DNA from: Neobacillus sp. YX16
GTDB lineage: Bacteria > Bacillota > Bacilli > Bacillales > Cytobacillaceae
Reading direction: 5' to 3'
Length of the DNA stretch: 64,000 nt
Assembly: GCF_030123505.1 (NCBI RefSeq)
Contig: NZ_CP126115.1
Location: 4,354,001 to 4,418,000, forward strand
The position numbers and the translations under genes are program-made. Shown piece after piece: positions 2,694 to 64,000 of this stretch. Position 1 is the stretch's first letter. Each line of letters opens with the position of its first letter. Below the pieces are notes generated by a model, which saw only the letters and a list, made by a program, of their open reading frames with translations, made no database searches and was not told the DNA's origin.

Positions 2694-2878
2694 GGCTGTG
2701 TTAGTTTTTCTGTTGATTTGCGCTCCAGGCACTTCGCGCACCTTAGAGCGGTACGAGGAGCCTCCTCGACGCTAAAGCGCCTGCGGGGTCTCCCCCTGCC
2801 CCGTCCTCCCGCAGGAGTCTCGTGCCTTCCGCGCTAATCAACAGAGTGCCAAAATGAACATTTGCCTTTAACACAGCC
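2694..2878 (+). repeat. Dispersed structured repeat, short form (copy 1 of family A)
   Basis: A 185-bp GC-rich element bounded by the inverted repeats GGCTGTGTTA (2694-2703) and TAACACAGCC (2869-2878). Inner ends are CTGTTGATTTGCGCTCCAGGC and the near-complement CCTTCCGCGCTAATCAACAG; the centre has self-complementary stretches such as GAGGAGCCTCCTCG and GCGGGG...CCCCGTCC. Closely related copies occur at 20066-20248 and 36710-36892, and longer mosaic relatives at 23064, 31224 and 63601. It lies between ypjA and the qcrC terminator. Open frames inside it are not credible genes. Confidence 0.9.
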
Positions 2879-15473: not shown

Positions 15474-15620
15474 GAATTCCACTCCTAAAATAGTATGTAT
15501 AAAATAATAATTGTCATAGTGGGACAATCCATTGAAAATGTTATCATTTTTTTGAATATTTCGCAAGTCAGAAAAGCAGAAGCGTTGCGATGAGAACGCG
15601 TAATCTCCTAAAAAGGGATG

Positions 15621-15692
15621 ACGCGGTCACTCTTAAGAGCATTGAGAGACTGTCAACTGATAATAAGAGCGAACGCGGTCACTCTTAAGAGC
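15621..15692. repeat. Pair of 20-bp direct repeats in the ndk-hepT gap
   Basis: The 20-base string ACGCGGTCACTCTTAAGAGC occurs at 15621-15640 and 15673-15692, exactly 52 bases apart, in the 333-base gene-free gap between hepT and ndk (15474-15806). The unit contains the palindromic core CTCTTAAGAG. The rest of the gap shows no ORF; a stretch at about 15572-15586 (AAAAGCAGAAGCG) weakly resembles the end of the B-type repeats. Confidence 0.85.
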
Positions 15693-15764
15693 AATAGTGA
15701 CTCTGACACCAACTTTTTTTGGGGAGGTCACGAATAAAAAGGCGAAAATACGTAGAATTAGGCA

Positions 15765-19972: not shown

Positions 19973-20065
19973 GAATAATTCATGAAATAATGGTAATCTT
20001 TTCTTCATTTCTACAAATTTCTACTAAATTTTGTAATTTTGGGTGTAGATTTTTGTAAAAAAGAA

Positions 20066-20248
20066 GGCTGTGTTAAACTTGGCTGTTGATTTGCGCTCCA
20101 GGCGCTATGCTTTCCGCGGGCTCGCCCGTGAGCCTCCTTACAGCTTCGCTCCTGCAGGGTCTCACTCAGCTCGTTTATCCCGTAGGAGTCAAGCTCCTTC
20201 CGCTCCAATCAACAGGTTCCAAAATCAACAGTCTCCTTTAACACAGCC
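20066..20248 (+). repeat. Dispersed structured repeat, short form (copy 2 of family A)
   Basis: A 183-bp element with the same terminal inverted repeats GGCTGTGTTA / TAACACAGCC and the same inner ends (CTGTTGATTTGCGCTCCAGG ... CCTTCCGCTCCAATCAACAG) as copies 1 and 4, but a diverged centre with its own palindrome (GCGGGCTCGCCCGTGAGCC). It lies between the spoIVA terminator and the hbs promoter region. Confidence 0.9.
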
Positions 20249-20249
20249 A

Positions 20250-20282
20250 AAAAGAAAAAAGACTCCAATTGGAGTCTTCAAG
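20250..20282 (-). terminator. Terminator of spoIVA
   Basis: On the minus strand AAGACTCC-AATT-GGAGTCTT followed by TTTTCTTTTT, directly after the spoIVA stop codon. The family A repeat begins 2 bases beyond. Confidence 0.88.
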
Positions 20283-20283
20283 C

Positions 20284-21762
20284 CTAAAGGATTATTGCAA
20301 TCAAACCGCCTGATCCTTCGTTAATAATTCTCTCTAACGTCTCTTTTAGTTTATATCTTGCATTCTCTGGCATTAAGGAAAGCTTGGCTTGGATACCCTC
20401 CCTAACGATAGAGCTTAACGAACGTCCAAATATATCAGAGTTCCAGATGGATAATGGATCATCCTCGAAGTCCTGCATTAGGTAGCGAACTAACTCTTCA
20501 CTTTGCTTTTCTGTCCCAATAATCGGAGCGAACTCAGATTCAACATCGACCTTTATCATATGGATCGATGGGGCCACCGCTCGCAGCCTAACTCCAAACC
20601 TTGCACCCTGGCGGATAATTTCAGGTTCTTCCAGGCTCATATCTGAAAGTGACGGCGACGCAATACCGTAGCCAGTTTGTTTGACCATTCTTAATGCGTC
20701 AGAAATATGGTCATACTCTGCTTTTGCATATGCAAAATCCTGCATGAGCTCAAGAAGATGATCTTTACCCCTGATTTCAACCCCTACAATTTCTTTTAAA
20801 ATATCATCGTAAAGTTCGTCTGGAGCAAATAAATCAATTTCTGCCACACCTTGACCCATTTCAATCCCGGCTAACCCAGCTCTCTCAATATAATCAAAAT
20901 CGCTAAACTGCTGCACGACACGATCAACATCTCTTAATCTCTTGATATCTTTAACTGTTTCTTTAACAGCTTCTTGATAACTTTCACGCAGCCAGTGATT
21001 TTCTCTCAATACCATGACCCAGCTAGGCAGATTAACATTAACCTCAAGGACTGGAAACTCATATAGAGCCTCTCTGAGAACATTGAGTACATCACTGTCA
21101 CGCATGCTTTCAACACTCATTGCGAGGACAGGAATGTCATACTTTTCCGCTAAGCTAGACCTAAGCGTCTCAGTGCTAGGATGATATGGCTGGGCGCTAT
21201 TGACAACCATAATAAACGGTTTGCCAACTTCCTTCAGTTCGTTAATGACTCTTTCCTCAGCTTCAATGTAATTGCTTCTTGGAATTTCACCAATTGTCCC
21301 ATCAGTAGTAACCACTACGCCAATTGTAGAATGCTCTTGAATCACTTTTCGTGTTCCAATTTCAGCAGCTTCATGGAACGGAATAGGTTCCTCGTACCAT
21401 GGGGTAGTAATCATTCTAGGGCCATTTTCATCCTCATATCCTTTTGCACCCGGAACAGTGTAGCCAACACAATCAACTAATCTAATATTTACATTAAGAC
21501 CCTCATCAACATGAACAGTTGCCGCTTGATTCGGAACGAACTTTGGCTCTGTTGTCATAATTGTTTTCCCTGCTGCACTCTGAGGAAGTTCATCGACAGT
21601 TCTTGATCTTTCTGCCTCATTGTCTATATTCGGTAAAACCACAAGCTCCATAAATTTTTTAATAAATGTGGATTTTCCTGTTCGAACAGCACCTACTACT
21701 CCTAAATAAATATCACCGCCAGTTCTTTCGGCAATATCTTTGAAAATATCAACCTTTTCCAA
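20284..21762 (-). CDS. spoIVA: Spore coat morphogenesis ATPase SpoIVA
   Basis: A 492-residue protein, the same length as B. subtilis SpoIVA. The N-terminal NTPase domain has the Walker A GAVRTGKS (24-31) and VDCVGYTVPGA; the C-terminus ends GGLIAIIL, matching the conserved membrane-surface-targeting tail. In the mother cell it polymerises with ATP hydrolysis to form the coat basement layer on the forespore. The start is TTG (21762) with GGGAGGGGAT upstream. A sigma-E-like promoter sequence lies about 70 bases upstream. Confidence 0.98.
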   Translation of the reverse strand: MEKVDIFKDIAERTGGDIYLGVVGAVRTGKSTFIKKFMELVVLPNIDNEAERSRTVDELPQSAAGKTIMTTEPKFVPNQAATVHVDEGLNVNIRLVDCVGYTVPGAKGYEDENGPRMITTPWYEEPIPFHEAAEIGTRKVIQEHSTIGVVVTTDGTIGEIPRSNYIEAEERVINELKEVGKPFIMVVNSAQPYHPSTETLRSSLAEKYDIPVLAMSVESMRDSDVLNVLREALYEFPVLEVNVNLPSWVMVLRENHWLRESYQEAVKETVKDIKRLRDVDRVVQQFSDFDYIERAGLAGIEMGQGVAEIDLFAPDELYDDILKEIVGVEIRGKDHLLELMQDFAYAKAEYDHISDALRMVKQTGYGIASPSLSDMSLEEPEIIRQGARFGVRLRAVAPSIHMIKVDVESEFAPIIGTEKQSEELVRYLMQDFEDDPLSIWNSDIFGRSLSSIVREGIQAKLSLMPENARYKLKETLERIINEGSGGLIAIIL

Positions 21763-22962: not shown

Positions 22963-23063
22963 TAGGACACCCCCTTATTCCGAAAGCTATTATACCATAA
23001 GGAAGATGTTTTCATGAAAATTTTTGATTTTTTTGCTGTGAAGAAAGAATTTGTTCATATAGC

Positions 23064-23426
23064 GTGTTGATTTGTGCGGAAGGCACGAGACTCCTCGAAA
23101 ATGCTATCGCATTTTCTTCGTGCGTGGGCAGATTCGAGGAAGTAAATCAATGTCCTGCAGGAGGACGGGGCAGGGGAGACCCCGCAGACGCTTTAGCGTC
23201 GAGGAGTAGGAAAAGCGGAAGCGCCTTGTACAGCCCCGACAAGCGCTGGAGAGCCTGACGATGAAGTCATTCTTTGACTTCAACGTTGGGACCGAAGCGA
23301 CTCGAGGGGCTAGACAGGCTCCCCGTACCGCCTGCGGAAAGCGAAGTGCCTCGTGACAGGCAAAGACCGCCTGTCTCTGCGGTGATTTTTCAAAGAAGCT
23401 TTCCTTAGTGGAGCACAAATCAACAC
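23064..23426 (-). repeat. Dispersed mosaic repeat, long form (copy 3 of family A, inverted)
   Basis: A 363-bp element with ends GTGTTGATTTGTGC (23064-23077) and the exact complement GCACAAATCAACAC (23413-23426). It contains the three extra modules seen in long forms: Y (about 23091-23160, with hairpin AAAATGC-TATC-GCATTTT), X (23209-23314, 106 bp) and Z (about 23340-23412). X lacks 13 bp relative to the other copies, consistent with loss between two CTAG tetramers. ORFs inside are not credible. The gene-free gap 22963-23606 is otherwise empty apart from a terminator. Confidence 0.88.
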
Positions 23427-23440
23427 AACCATATCAAAAA

Positions 23441-26179: not shown

Positions 26180-26300
26180 AAAAGCGTAAGGCGCCTGCCC
26201 TTCGGCGACAAGCGTAAGACGAGCCCGAAGGAAGGTTGCCCTTTAACCTTCTTGACGGATTGGCTGTAGACCATCGAGCCGATGGCGCCTGAAACTGGAC
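26180..26300 (+). repeat. Stand-alone structured repeat (family B, copy 1)
   Basis: About 121 bp beginning AAAAGCGTAAGGCGCC and ending GATGGCGCCTGAAACTGG, so the ends form a GGCGCC-based inverted repeat. Internal complementary pair GCCCTTCGG / CCCGAAGG. It shares GCGACA-AGCGTAAGACGAGCC and AGGAAGGTTG with the element at 42461-42606. It lies in the der-yphA gap. Confidence 0.8.
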
Positions 26301-31155: not shown

Positions 31156-31223
31156 ACCATCACTCCAATTACCAATTACTACTATTATTGGAGTGATGGT
31201 ATGGCTTTATACTTAATCCTAAT

Positions 31224-31574
31224 GCTGTGTTAACTTGGTCTGTTAATTTGTGCTCCAGGCGGTTCGGGAAGCCTGTCTAGCTGCAGCGCCTAGCCCCTCG
31301 AGTCGCTTCGGTCCCAACGATGAAGGCAAAGAACGACTTCATCGTCAGGCCCTCCAGCGCTTGTCGGGGCTGTACAAGGCGCTTCCGCTTTTCCTACTCC
31401 TCGGCGCTAAGAGATAAGCGGGGTCTCCCCTGTCCCGTCCTCCTTCAGGACATTGATTTACTTCCTCGAATCTGCCCACGCACGAAGAAATTGCGATAGC
31501 ATTTTCGGAGGAGTCTCGCGCCTTCCGCACAAATCAACAGAGTTCTAAAATTATTATTTTCCTTTAACACAGCC
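31224..31574 (+). repeat. Dispersed mosaic repeat, long form (copy 4 of family A)
   Basis: A 351-bp element with ends GCTGTGTTAA (31224) and TTAACACAGC (to 31573). Relative to the short copies it contains module X (31276-31394, 119 bp) and module Y (about 31444-31513) but not Z. It fills the gap between ypfB and ypeB, ending 6 bases before the ypeB stop codon, and no separate ypeB terminator is visible. Confidence 0.9.
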
Positions 31575-36709: not shown

Positions 36710-36892
36710 GGCTGTGTTAAATTTGTCTGTTGATTTGCGCTCCAGGCACTTCGCTTTCCGCGGGCGGTACGGGGAGCCTCCTCGGCGCTTAAGCGCCTGC
36801 GGGGTCTCCCCTGCCCCGTCCTCCCGCAGGAGTCTTCGTGCCTTCCGCTCCAACCAACGAATGCCAAAATAAATATCGGCTTTAACACAGCC
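36710..36892 (+). repeat. Dispersed structured repeat, short form (copy 5 of family A)
   Basis: A 183-bp element with GGCTGTGTTA / TAACACAGCC ends, very close to copy 1. Inside are complementary pairs such as GGCGCTTAAGCGCC and CTGCGGGG...CCTCCCGCAG. It lies between ypdA and the gudB terminator, 8 bases from the terminator stem. Confidence 0.9.
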
Positions 36893-42221: not shown

Positions 42222-42462
42222 ATATTATCAAATAATGGAACAGCTTCAAGCTGTTGATTTTGTCTTAGTCGAATTAACACTGTATTTAGACACACACCCT
42301 GACGACCTAGAAGCAATTAAGCAATTCAATCATTATGCAAAAGAAAGAAAAACGATAAAAAAGGTATTTGAGAGTCAATTTGGTCCTCTTCAGCAGTTTG
42401 GCAACAGCTATTCTGGACACCCTTGGAACTGGAACGAGCCGCCTTGGCCATGGCAAGTTTAA
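42202..42462 (+). CDS. cotJB: Spore coat protein CotJB
   Basis: An 86-residue protein with family segments PPEYYQIMEQLQAVDFVLVE and YLDTHPDD, and the tryptophan-rich end (HPWNWNEPPWPWQV). The start ATG at 42202 lies within cotJA and follows AGGGGGG, so translation is coupled. The stop codon TAA (42460-42462) overlaps the first bases of a B-type repeat that separates it from cotJC. Confidence 0.94.
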   Translation: MKQIPPEYYQIMEQLQAVDFVLVELTLYLDTHPDDLEAIKQFNHYAKERKTIKKVFESQFGPLQQFGNSYSGHPWNWNEPPWPWQV

Positions 42463-42606
42463 AAGCGGAAGCGCCTAGTATAGAGGCGACAGGCATAAGA
42501 CGAGCCGGCAGGAAGGTTGTTCTTTACATTTATGACAGAATGGCTTATGACCGAGGAAAAAGTGTTTTCCTTTTTCCACCGAGCCTCTAGGCGCTGCAGC
42601 TAGATA
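42461..42606 (+). repeat. Structured repeat inside the cotJ operon (family B, copy 2)
   Basis: About 146 bp, beginning AAAAGCGGAAGCGCCTAG and ending CTAGGCGCTGCAGCTAGATA, so the ends pair over AGCGCCTAG/CTAGGCGCT. It has an internal hairpin GGAAAAAGTG...TTTTTCC near 42553-42577. The two ends are the same as those of module X in the long family A elements, while the interior matches the repeat at 26180-26300. It occupies nearly all of the cotJB-cotJC gap. Confidence 0.88.
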
Positions 42607-42641
42607 TTAATAAAATTATAAACAGGGAGGGAAATTTGTAC

Positions 42642-48908: not shown

Positions 48909-49040
48909 CCTCCATCTTCTCCCATCCAGACTATACTGTCGGCTTTGGAATCACACCAAATCCTGCCATAAAGGCTCGCGGGCTCAAGAGATTAACTCTA
49001 ATACCGCCGATCGGGAATTTCACCCTGCCCCGAAGATAGA
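48909..49040 (-). ncRNA. FMN riboswitch (RFN element)
   Basis: The minus strand carries the conserved RFN pattern in order: ATCTTCGGGGCAGGGTGAAA, TTCCCGATCGGCGGTA, GAGCCCGCGAGC, GGCAGGATTTGGTGTGATTC, CAAAGCCGACAGTATAGTCT and GGATGGGAGAAGATGG. The first and last segments form the closing stem. It binds flavin mononucleotide and, through the downstream terminator, shuts off riboflavin uptake when flavin is plentiful. Confidence 0.96.
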
Positions 49041-49089
49041 TCGATATTTAATTACAGCTTTATTATACTAGTAAGTATTTGTTTTGAAA

Positions 49090-63477: not shown

Positions 63478-63600
63478 TTAAATCAATCCCCTTTGGTCAT
63501 TAACAATAAGTTGAATCTTCGGAATTTCATTTAAATCGTATTTCTATTTTAACACATCTAAAATGAATTGTTTTATTTTTAAGCGATTTTAAAATAGTCT

Positions 63601-63971
63601 GTTGATTTCCGCTCCACTAAGGAAAGCTTCTTTGAACAATCACCGCAGGGACAGGCGGTCTTTGCCGGTCACGAGGCTCTTCGCTTTCCGCAGGCGGTCC
63701 GGGAAGCCTGTCTAGCTACAGCGCCTAGCCCCTCGAGTCGCTTCGGTCCCAACGTTGAAGTCAAAGAACGACTTCATCGTCAGGCCCTCCAGCGCTTGTC
63801 GGGGCTGTACAAGGCGCTTCCGCTTTTCCTACTCCTCGGCGCTTAGAGATGAGCGGGGTCTCCCCTGCCCTGTCCTCCTGCAGGACATTGATTTACATCT
63901 TCGAATCTGCCCACGCACGAAGAAAATGCGATAGCATTTTCGAGGAGTCTCGCGCCTTCCGCGGAAATCAA
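63601..63971 (+). repeat. Dispersed mosaic repeat, long form (copy 6 of family A)
   Basis: About 371 bp from GTTGATTTCCGCTCC (63601-63615) to GCGGAAATCAA (63961-63971), its complement. It contains all three extra modules: Z (about 63615-63675), X (63711-63829, 119 bp) and Y (about 63879-63947). It lacks the outer GGCTGTGTTA ends of the short copies. No gene is visible between 63478 and the window end. Confidence 0.88.
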
Positions 63972-64000
63972 TTTATGAGCTTTAAATATCTATCCTTAAG

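Follow-up and report, generated by a model that had tools for sequence, protein, structure and literature searches.

The intergenic repeats of Neobacillus sp. YX16 described here are MITE-type elements of a new family, characterised by IS1595-type ends and by a hairpin core that is conserved. Their mobility is evident from 8-bp target-site duplications and from empty sites in related genomes, and in all likelihood they are non-autonomous DNA transposons moved in trans by a transposase of the IS1595 family. A frequent Bacillaceae repeat of unassigned origin can thus be given defined ends, a duplication of fixed length, a probable mover and a set of relatives. Six copies lie in the window, the 64-kb stretch of DNA that was analysed as a whole:

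2694..2878, plus strand: short element of 185 bp with outer ends GGCTGTGTTA/TAACACAGCC; 183.5 bits with the covariance model R1, which was built from 20 copies, this one among them
20066..20248, plus strand: short element of 183 bp whose core belongs to a diverged subtype; flanked by AAAAAGAA at 20058-20065 and 20249-20256, a perfect 8-bp duplication
23034..23440, minus strand: long element with decayed outer ends and with inner ends at 23064 and near 23425; its limits are deduced from the copies that genomes G008 and G016 have at the matching site
31223..31574, plus strand: long element of 352 bp with an extra nested module, TCTAGCTGCAGCGCC...GGCGCTTCCGCTTTT, in its core
36710..36892, plus strand: short element of 183 bp, flanked by an imperfect 8-bp duplication, ATTCCAAA / ATTCAAAA (one mismatch)
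63582..63995, plus strand: long element whose outer ends have decayed and whose inner ends lie at about 63600-63971; limits set by eye

A sequence-only reading of the window had already placed the three short units, and both their coordinates and their ends proved exact. The same reading gave the long form at 31224 nearly identical ends, which holds, although its start was misplaced: the element spans 31223-31574, and its left end, TGCTGTGTTA, has one mismatch. The copies at 23064 and 63601 had been credited with inner ends only; these ends are present, but both copies are apparently full elements whose outer ends have decayed. As for the claim that the repeats carry no credible protein, two open reading frames of at least 80 aa do overlap copies (84 aa at 20070-20324 and 104 aa at 23104-23418), but neither has a match in Pfam. 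The 10-mer end occurs nine times in the window within one mismatch, against 2.38 expected, a count reached by none of 100 shuffles. A literal pattern, GGCTGTGTTA-N8-CTGTTGATTTG, found nothing because its spacing was wrong, and the 63582 copy was not reported by R1 in the window at an E-value of 0.01. The flanks of the 2694 copy (TAAGATTA / ATTAATAA) hold no convincing 8-bp duplication, and by eye none is clear at the 31223 copy.

Searching the whole genome (G000, 6.23 Mb) with the covariance model revealed many further copies, at least 102 at E-values up to 0.001; the figure is a lower bound, as 150 of 2168 first-look candidates were scored. The window, with six copies in 64 kb as first read, is therefore denser in repeats than the genome on average. 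The 11-mer GGCTGTGTTAA occurs 46 times on the forward and 46 times on the reverse strand of this genome, whereas its reversed control occurs 0 and 1 times. Examples from the same genome range from 98 to 427 bp in length, varying by nested modules.

Target-site duplications were counted in the 51 of the 102 copies that gave full model matches in the fetched loci and had limits reaching recognisable ends, the others having been dropped by hand beforehand. Fourteen of these copies are flanked by perfect 8-bp duplications, 23 by duplications with at most one mismatch and 33 by duplications with at most two; after random re-pairing of the flanks, the same three classes had means of 0.3, 1.0 and 3.4 and maxima of 5, 5 and 9. 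In G012, from which 20 copies were fetched and one was incomplete at the edge of its region, the 19 complete copies include 7 with perfect duplications and 18 with at most two mismatches. The duplicated sequence varied among copies.

Empty sites tell the same story. The 20066 copy is missing from five genomes, among them the same-species G033, where both flanks are 99% identical to those in the window, and the flanks overlap at the empty site by 7, 8, 8, 8 and 4 bp in G033, G008, G015, G016 and G056, respectively. At the 23034 site, no element is found in G015 and G056, while G008 and G016 hold a copy. The 31223 site is without an element in G008, G015, G016 and G056, as is the 36710 site in G015, G016 and G056, the junctions at both being less exact than at 20066. 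The 36710 copy has orthologous copies in G033 and G008. Repeat sites thus differ between species. Being short, free of a transposase gene, bounded by terminal inverted repeats, flanked by 8-bp duplications and matched by empty sites in relatives, the repeats have the features of MITEs.

Elements with a transposase and the same ends do exist in the genus, and they belong to the IS1595 family. The ends of the repeats consist of a bipartite motif of 25 bp, GGCTnTGTTAAA-N6-TGTTGAT. Within two mismatches, this motif fits 19 of 20 left ends and 13 of 20 right ends in the own genome, where right ends thus conform less well than left ends, and 19 of 19 left ends and 17 of 19 right ends in G012; as background, 4 of the 127,950 positions in the whole window give as good a fit. 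Both ends were found for 14 IS1595 elements among 30 fetched loci, some of them closely related to one another (L102, L111 and L114), and 26 of their 28 ends fit the motif within one mismatch when the first base may be A or G and T is permitted for the last A. Perfect 8-bp duplications flank 12 of the 14. For two of the transposases, those of L138 and L114, the scores are 206.9 and 193.3 bits with the NCBIfam model NF033547 (IS1595 family, cut-off 75) and 58.5 and 53.9 with PF12762.

The interior of the repeats is another matter. A string search found the GC-rich core in none of the 14 IS1595 elements, and the best match of the covariance model to the IS1595 loci (23 bits) lies at an element end. 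The repeats therefore share ends, but not their interior, with their presumed mover, and an origin by simple internal deletion of IS1595 elements was rejected, since the core is absent from all 14 examined. Ends held in common with elements that lack the core point to MITE-type elements, probably moved in trans, and on the strength of these shared ends the mover is very probably an IS1595-family transposase. The suggestion made from the sequence that the repeats are non-autonomous mobile elements accordingly gains support from the further copies, the duplications, the empty sites and a transposase family with matching ends.

The distribution of the two partners is uneven. Matches to IS1595 (PF12762) were found in 25 of 61 genomes of the genus, whereas relatives of the repeat were found in 57 of 60, and hence no mover was found in many genomes, although the two counts rest on different thresholds. 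In the sole IS1595 match of the own genome, L114 at 2.068 Mb, the transposase gene is interrupted by an in-frame stop codon (L114 1360-1362). In the copy-rich G012, the one IS1595 match (L109) also has an internal stop, and its surroundings yielded no pair of repeat-type ends. L114 carries a glyoxalase-superfamily gene.

The GC-rich core of the repeats, about 130 bp in length, forms one extended hairpin, and its base pairs show covariation among Bacillaceae genera. For 25 copies drawn from several genera, folding energies calculated with RNA parameters on either strand lie between about -54 and -96 kcal/mol, and the 36710 copy, the single one scored, has an RNA fold z-score of -6.75 against 200 shuffles. 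In a MAFFT alignment, 25 of 58 core pairs show double changes and 89.2% of cells are paired, as compared with 41-46% for slid partners and with 0 of 500 shuffles as high; these values are somewhat favourable in that the structure was derived from the alignment with RIBOSUM scoring, even though the alignment itself was not fitted to structure, and related copies are not independent in the covariation count. Default scoring gives a smaller core structure than RIBOSUM scoring. For the 20 copies of the own genome taken by themselves, double changes affect 9 of 48 pairs.

Orthologous copies are not always alike: the core has been lost in one case, and a module gained in another. The G008 ortholog of the 36710 copy (L050) keeps both outer ends and has no hairpin core, apparently a natural deletion of the palindrome. 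The 31223 ortholog in the same-species G033 is without the module of the window copy, as far as the end of its contig. At 42461-42610 the window also contains a different GC-rich repeat, bounded by ends similar to AAAAGCGGAAGCGCC ... GGCGCTGCAGCTAGA, and a similar start occurs at 26180; a module like this repeat is nested in 31223-31574 and was unseen in the assembled part of the G033 ortholog.

In three of four genomes, the repeats show a preferred orientation with respect to replication. On the first replichore of the own genome the minus strand carries 43 of 47 copies, and on the second the plus strand carries 41 of 55, so that 84 of 102 are concordant with replication (p 2e-11), with 52 of 63 concordant at 80 bits or more and 23 of 30 at 150 bits or more. 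The boundary used, at about 3.25-3.28 Mb, was set after the copy strands had been seen, and it agrees with the interval, 3.14 to 3.43 Mb, in which GC skew switches and gene strand does too. Among the matches listed for three other genomes, 30 of 40 are concordant in G019 (p 0.002; 40 of 93 matches covered), 17 of 23 in G020 (p 0.03; 23 of 110), where skew and strands are both inverted, and 36 of 71 in G012 (71 of at least 150), which shows no bias; the boundaries in these three genomes come from 20 skew samples each and were chosen after the copies had been located. The comparison does not include G056, for which 16 copies are listed.

The genes around 71 copies of the own genome were taken as the longest ORFs rather than from annotation. 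Where tandem genes lie on the leading strand, 38 of 40 copies follow replication; where the neighbours on both sides are oriented opposite to replication, 6 of 7 still do, a number too small to tell whether gene strand causes the bias. Between convergent genes 8 of 10 copies are concordant and between divergent genes 7 of 12, and 2 of 71 have no flanking ORF on one side. None of the 71 copies lies inside an ORF of more than 200 codons that extends 150 bp past both sides.

Because the copies of G012 are more alike and lack a bias found in three other genomes, the pattern suggests unbiased insertion followed by loss of wrong-way copies. Mean identity among copies is 93% in G012 versus 83.5% in the own genome, and divergence from the consensus is 4.5% versus 10.3% (20 copies from each genome in both comparisons). 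A difference between species may, as an alternative, account for the contrast between G012 and the other three. It is also possible, though rather unlikely, that the bias is set at insertion, for example if the transposase tracks the replication fork. Replication-linked insertion orientation has precedents in Tn7, IS200/IS605 and other IS families, according to the accessible part of one source (PMC5371812), and the copies that keep to replication against both of their neighbouring genes fit this idea as well. Against it, the less diverged G012 copies are evenly split among the matches listed, and the best-scoring copies of the own genome are somewhat less biased than its copies overall. This argument sets one genome against three, and the transposase may differ by species. 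With 102 or more copies whose ages can be estimated from divergence, a single genome offers a dense natural data set on the tolerance of hairpins on each replication strand.

Taken together with the shared ends, presumed loss after insertion completes the mechanism that we propose. A resident IS1595-family DDE transposase would bind and cut the two outer ends, GGCTnTGTTAAA-N6-TGTTGAT, in trans, and insertion into A/T-rich intergenic DNA would generate the 8-bp duplication. The palindromic core between the ends would pair over nearly its full length to give a single hairpin, presumably kept for the benefit of the element (for instance, by holding the ends together) rather than for that of the host. 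Copies in one orientation relative to replication would then be lost more often. A further proposal is speculative and, as a whole, quite unlikely: the core could be a portable, selected and replication-polar hairpin, whose wrong-way copies are harmful or unstable and are purged, leaving strand-marked hairpins along each Bacillaceae replichore, while the core itself behaves as a modular unit that gains nested modules and is lost whole.

Other accounts of the repeats have to be weighed against transposition by an IS1595-family enzyme. That the copies serve the host as structured RNA or DNA (a terminator, an RNA stabiliser, or a mark for replication or segregation), having spread long ago by transposition and now being kept, is improbable, even though several observations would suit it: the conserved core pairing, the strong fold of the one copy scored, the agreement of strand with replication in the own genome and the placement of copies outside long ORFs. 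Conserved pairing could, however, also arise in an element kept purely as a transposon, and a host role sits poorly with repeat sites that differ between species, a G008 ortholog that lacks the core, and a strand bias that is absent among the copies listed for G012. In Rfam, no family matches the window copies at the gathering score; the only hit in the window is an FMN riboswitch. Remnants of vertical segmental duplications are barely conceivable as a source. Some copies are indeed common to orthologous loci, the 36710 copy in G033 and G008 being one, but vertical descent, which the sequence-only reading had named as an outcome that would overturn it, does not fit because the copies have 8-bp duplications and because the 20066 copy has a precise empty site in a genome of the same species.

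Movement by an ISL3- or IS1182-family transposase is highly improbable as well. The search of the 61 genus genomes covered two transposase families, ISL3 and IS1595; other families with 8-bp duplications are IS6, IS256 and IS66. ISL3 elements also make 8-bp duplications, and in G053 a 1735-bp ISL3-family IS lies inside three repeat copies (L069, L078 and L087), so that the same outer ends stand about 1.93 kb apart. This IS has ends of its own (GGTTCTTACG), and repeat sequence on either side of it is duplicated over 8 bp (AAGGCCAT, AAGTTTAT and AAGTTTAG); the IS is therefore an insertion into the repeat, and ISL3 was rejected as the mover. Nor do the repeats share the GGTTCTTACG ends of this element. 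The family (PF01610) has matches in 9 of the 61 genomes, and among 30 ISL3 loci fetched, the outer ends of the repeat occur within one mismatch only at those of G053. Each of the three insertions occupies the identical position, directly behind the outer end, and the IS seems to target the repeat; a fourth ISL3-family IS in G053 (L083) lies, as judged by eye, beside a repeat-like stretch. For IS1182, the case is built on G031, in which ten near-identical IS1182-family elements (L031-L040) each contain one repeat copy between the element end and the transposase gene. These elements have their own ends and the repeat has spread within them as a passenger, so the ten equal-scoring copies do not represent a burst of the repeat, an explanation that was considered and rejected.

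The family extends well beyond the genome in which it was noticed. In a DNA search, the 57 genomes of the genus with relatives of the repeat include the own genome, and in the bacteria counted, copies number from dozens to more than 100 per chromosome. The motif pattern was found in at least 120 stretches of named genomes, and the hosts of the 80 stretches listed are all Bacillota by name, mostly of Bacillaceae genera. The covariance model gave 57 matches, some overlapping on both strands, in the 64 motif loci searched. Partner ends in the 80 loci were chosen to minimise mismatches in ends and duplications, so the counts favour the reading, and 24 of the 80 gave no partner end. Fifteen plasmid records match the 36710 copy, none over 80% of the query, and no phage record matches it. 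Three relatives (L132, L202 and L185) have IS1595-type ends, other ORFs and no transposase; the 8-bp duplication is perfect in L132 and has one mismatch in L202 and L185, the partner having been picked for best fit. Such transposase-less relatives comprise elements of 760 bp with a 154-aa protein, of 1109 bp with a 210-aa membrane-like protein and of 2397 bp with three ORFs.

These three relatives resemble mobile insertion cassettes such as MIC231, which likewise hold other genes, and no transposase, between the ends of a family. MIC231 is a relative of IS231, an IS4-family element, and unlike it, the short repeats carry no gene with a Pfam match among the two ORFs tested. REP/BIME sequences are also intergenic palindromes, and the fixed position at which the G053 IS enters the repeat adds to the likeness; to our knowledge, REPs have neither inverted ends nor 8-bp duplications, both of which are present here. 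Closest in their ends are members of the IS1595 family (IS1016 and related groups, and ISApl4), the transposase family of the elements that share the repeat ends. In the part of its description that is accessible, the ends of ISApl4 start with GGGGCTGTACTAGA, compared with GGCTnTGTTAAA in the repeats, and its 8-bp direct repeats are A/T-rich (PMC12561309). The repeats differ from this family in encoding no transposase and in carrying the GC-rich hairpin core missing from the 14 elements.

Among repeats of Bacillus, bcr1-bcr18 of the Bacillus cereus group are similarly short, repeated and mobile-looking. The accessible part of one study gives bcr1 an average of 39 and up to 130 copies per strain, ties bcr mobility to a TTTAT motif and limits the group to B. 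cereus s.l. (PMC6542083). The present repeats fall outside it, having IS1595-type ends, 8-bp duplications of varied sequence and, in the 80 stretches listed, hosts mainly from other Bacillaceae genera. Bhal-1 and Bant-1 are repeated stem-loop sequences in Bacillus as well, of 72 and 74 bp in the accessible part of their description (PMC2267715), and the comparison with them is one of length. In the literature on IS1595, MITEs, bcr1, mobile insertion cassettes and Neobacillus repeats, no title or abstract seen describes the family; an earlier description, for example in ISfinder, may exist, since the search missed most subscription papers.

The window holds other features besides the repeats. 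The FMN riboswitch (RF00050) lies at 48910-49041 on the minus strand, and a 51-bp repeat forms a tandem pair, 75% identical, at 15591-15693.
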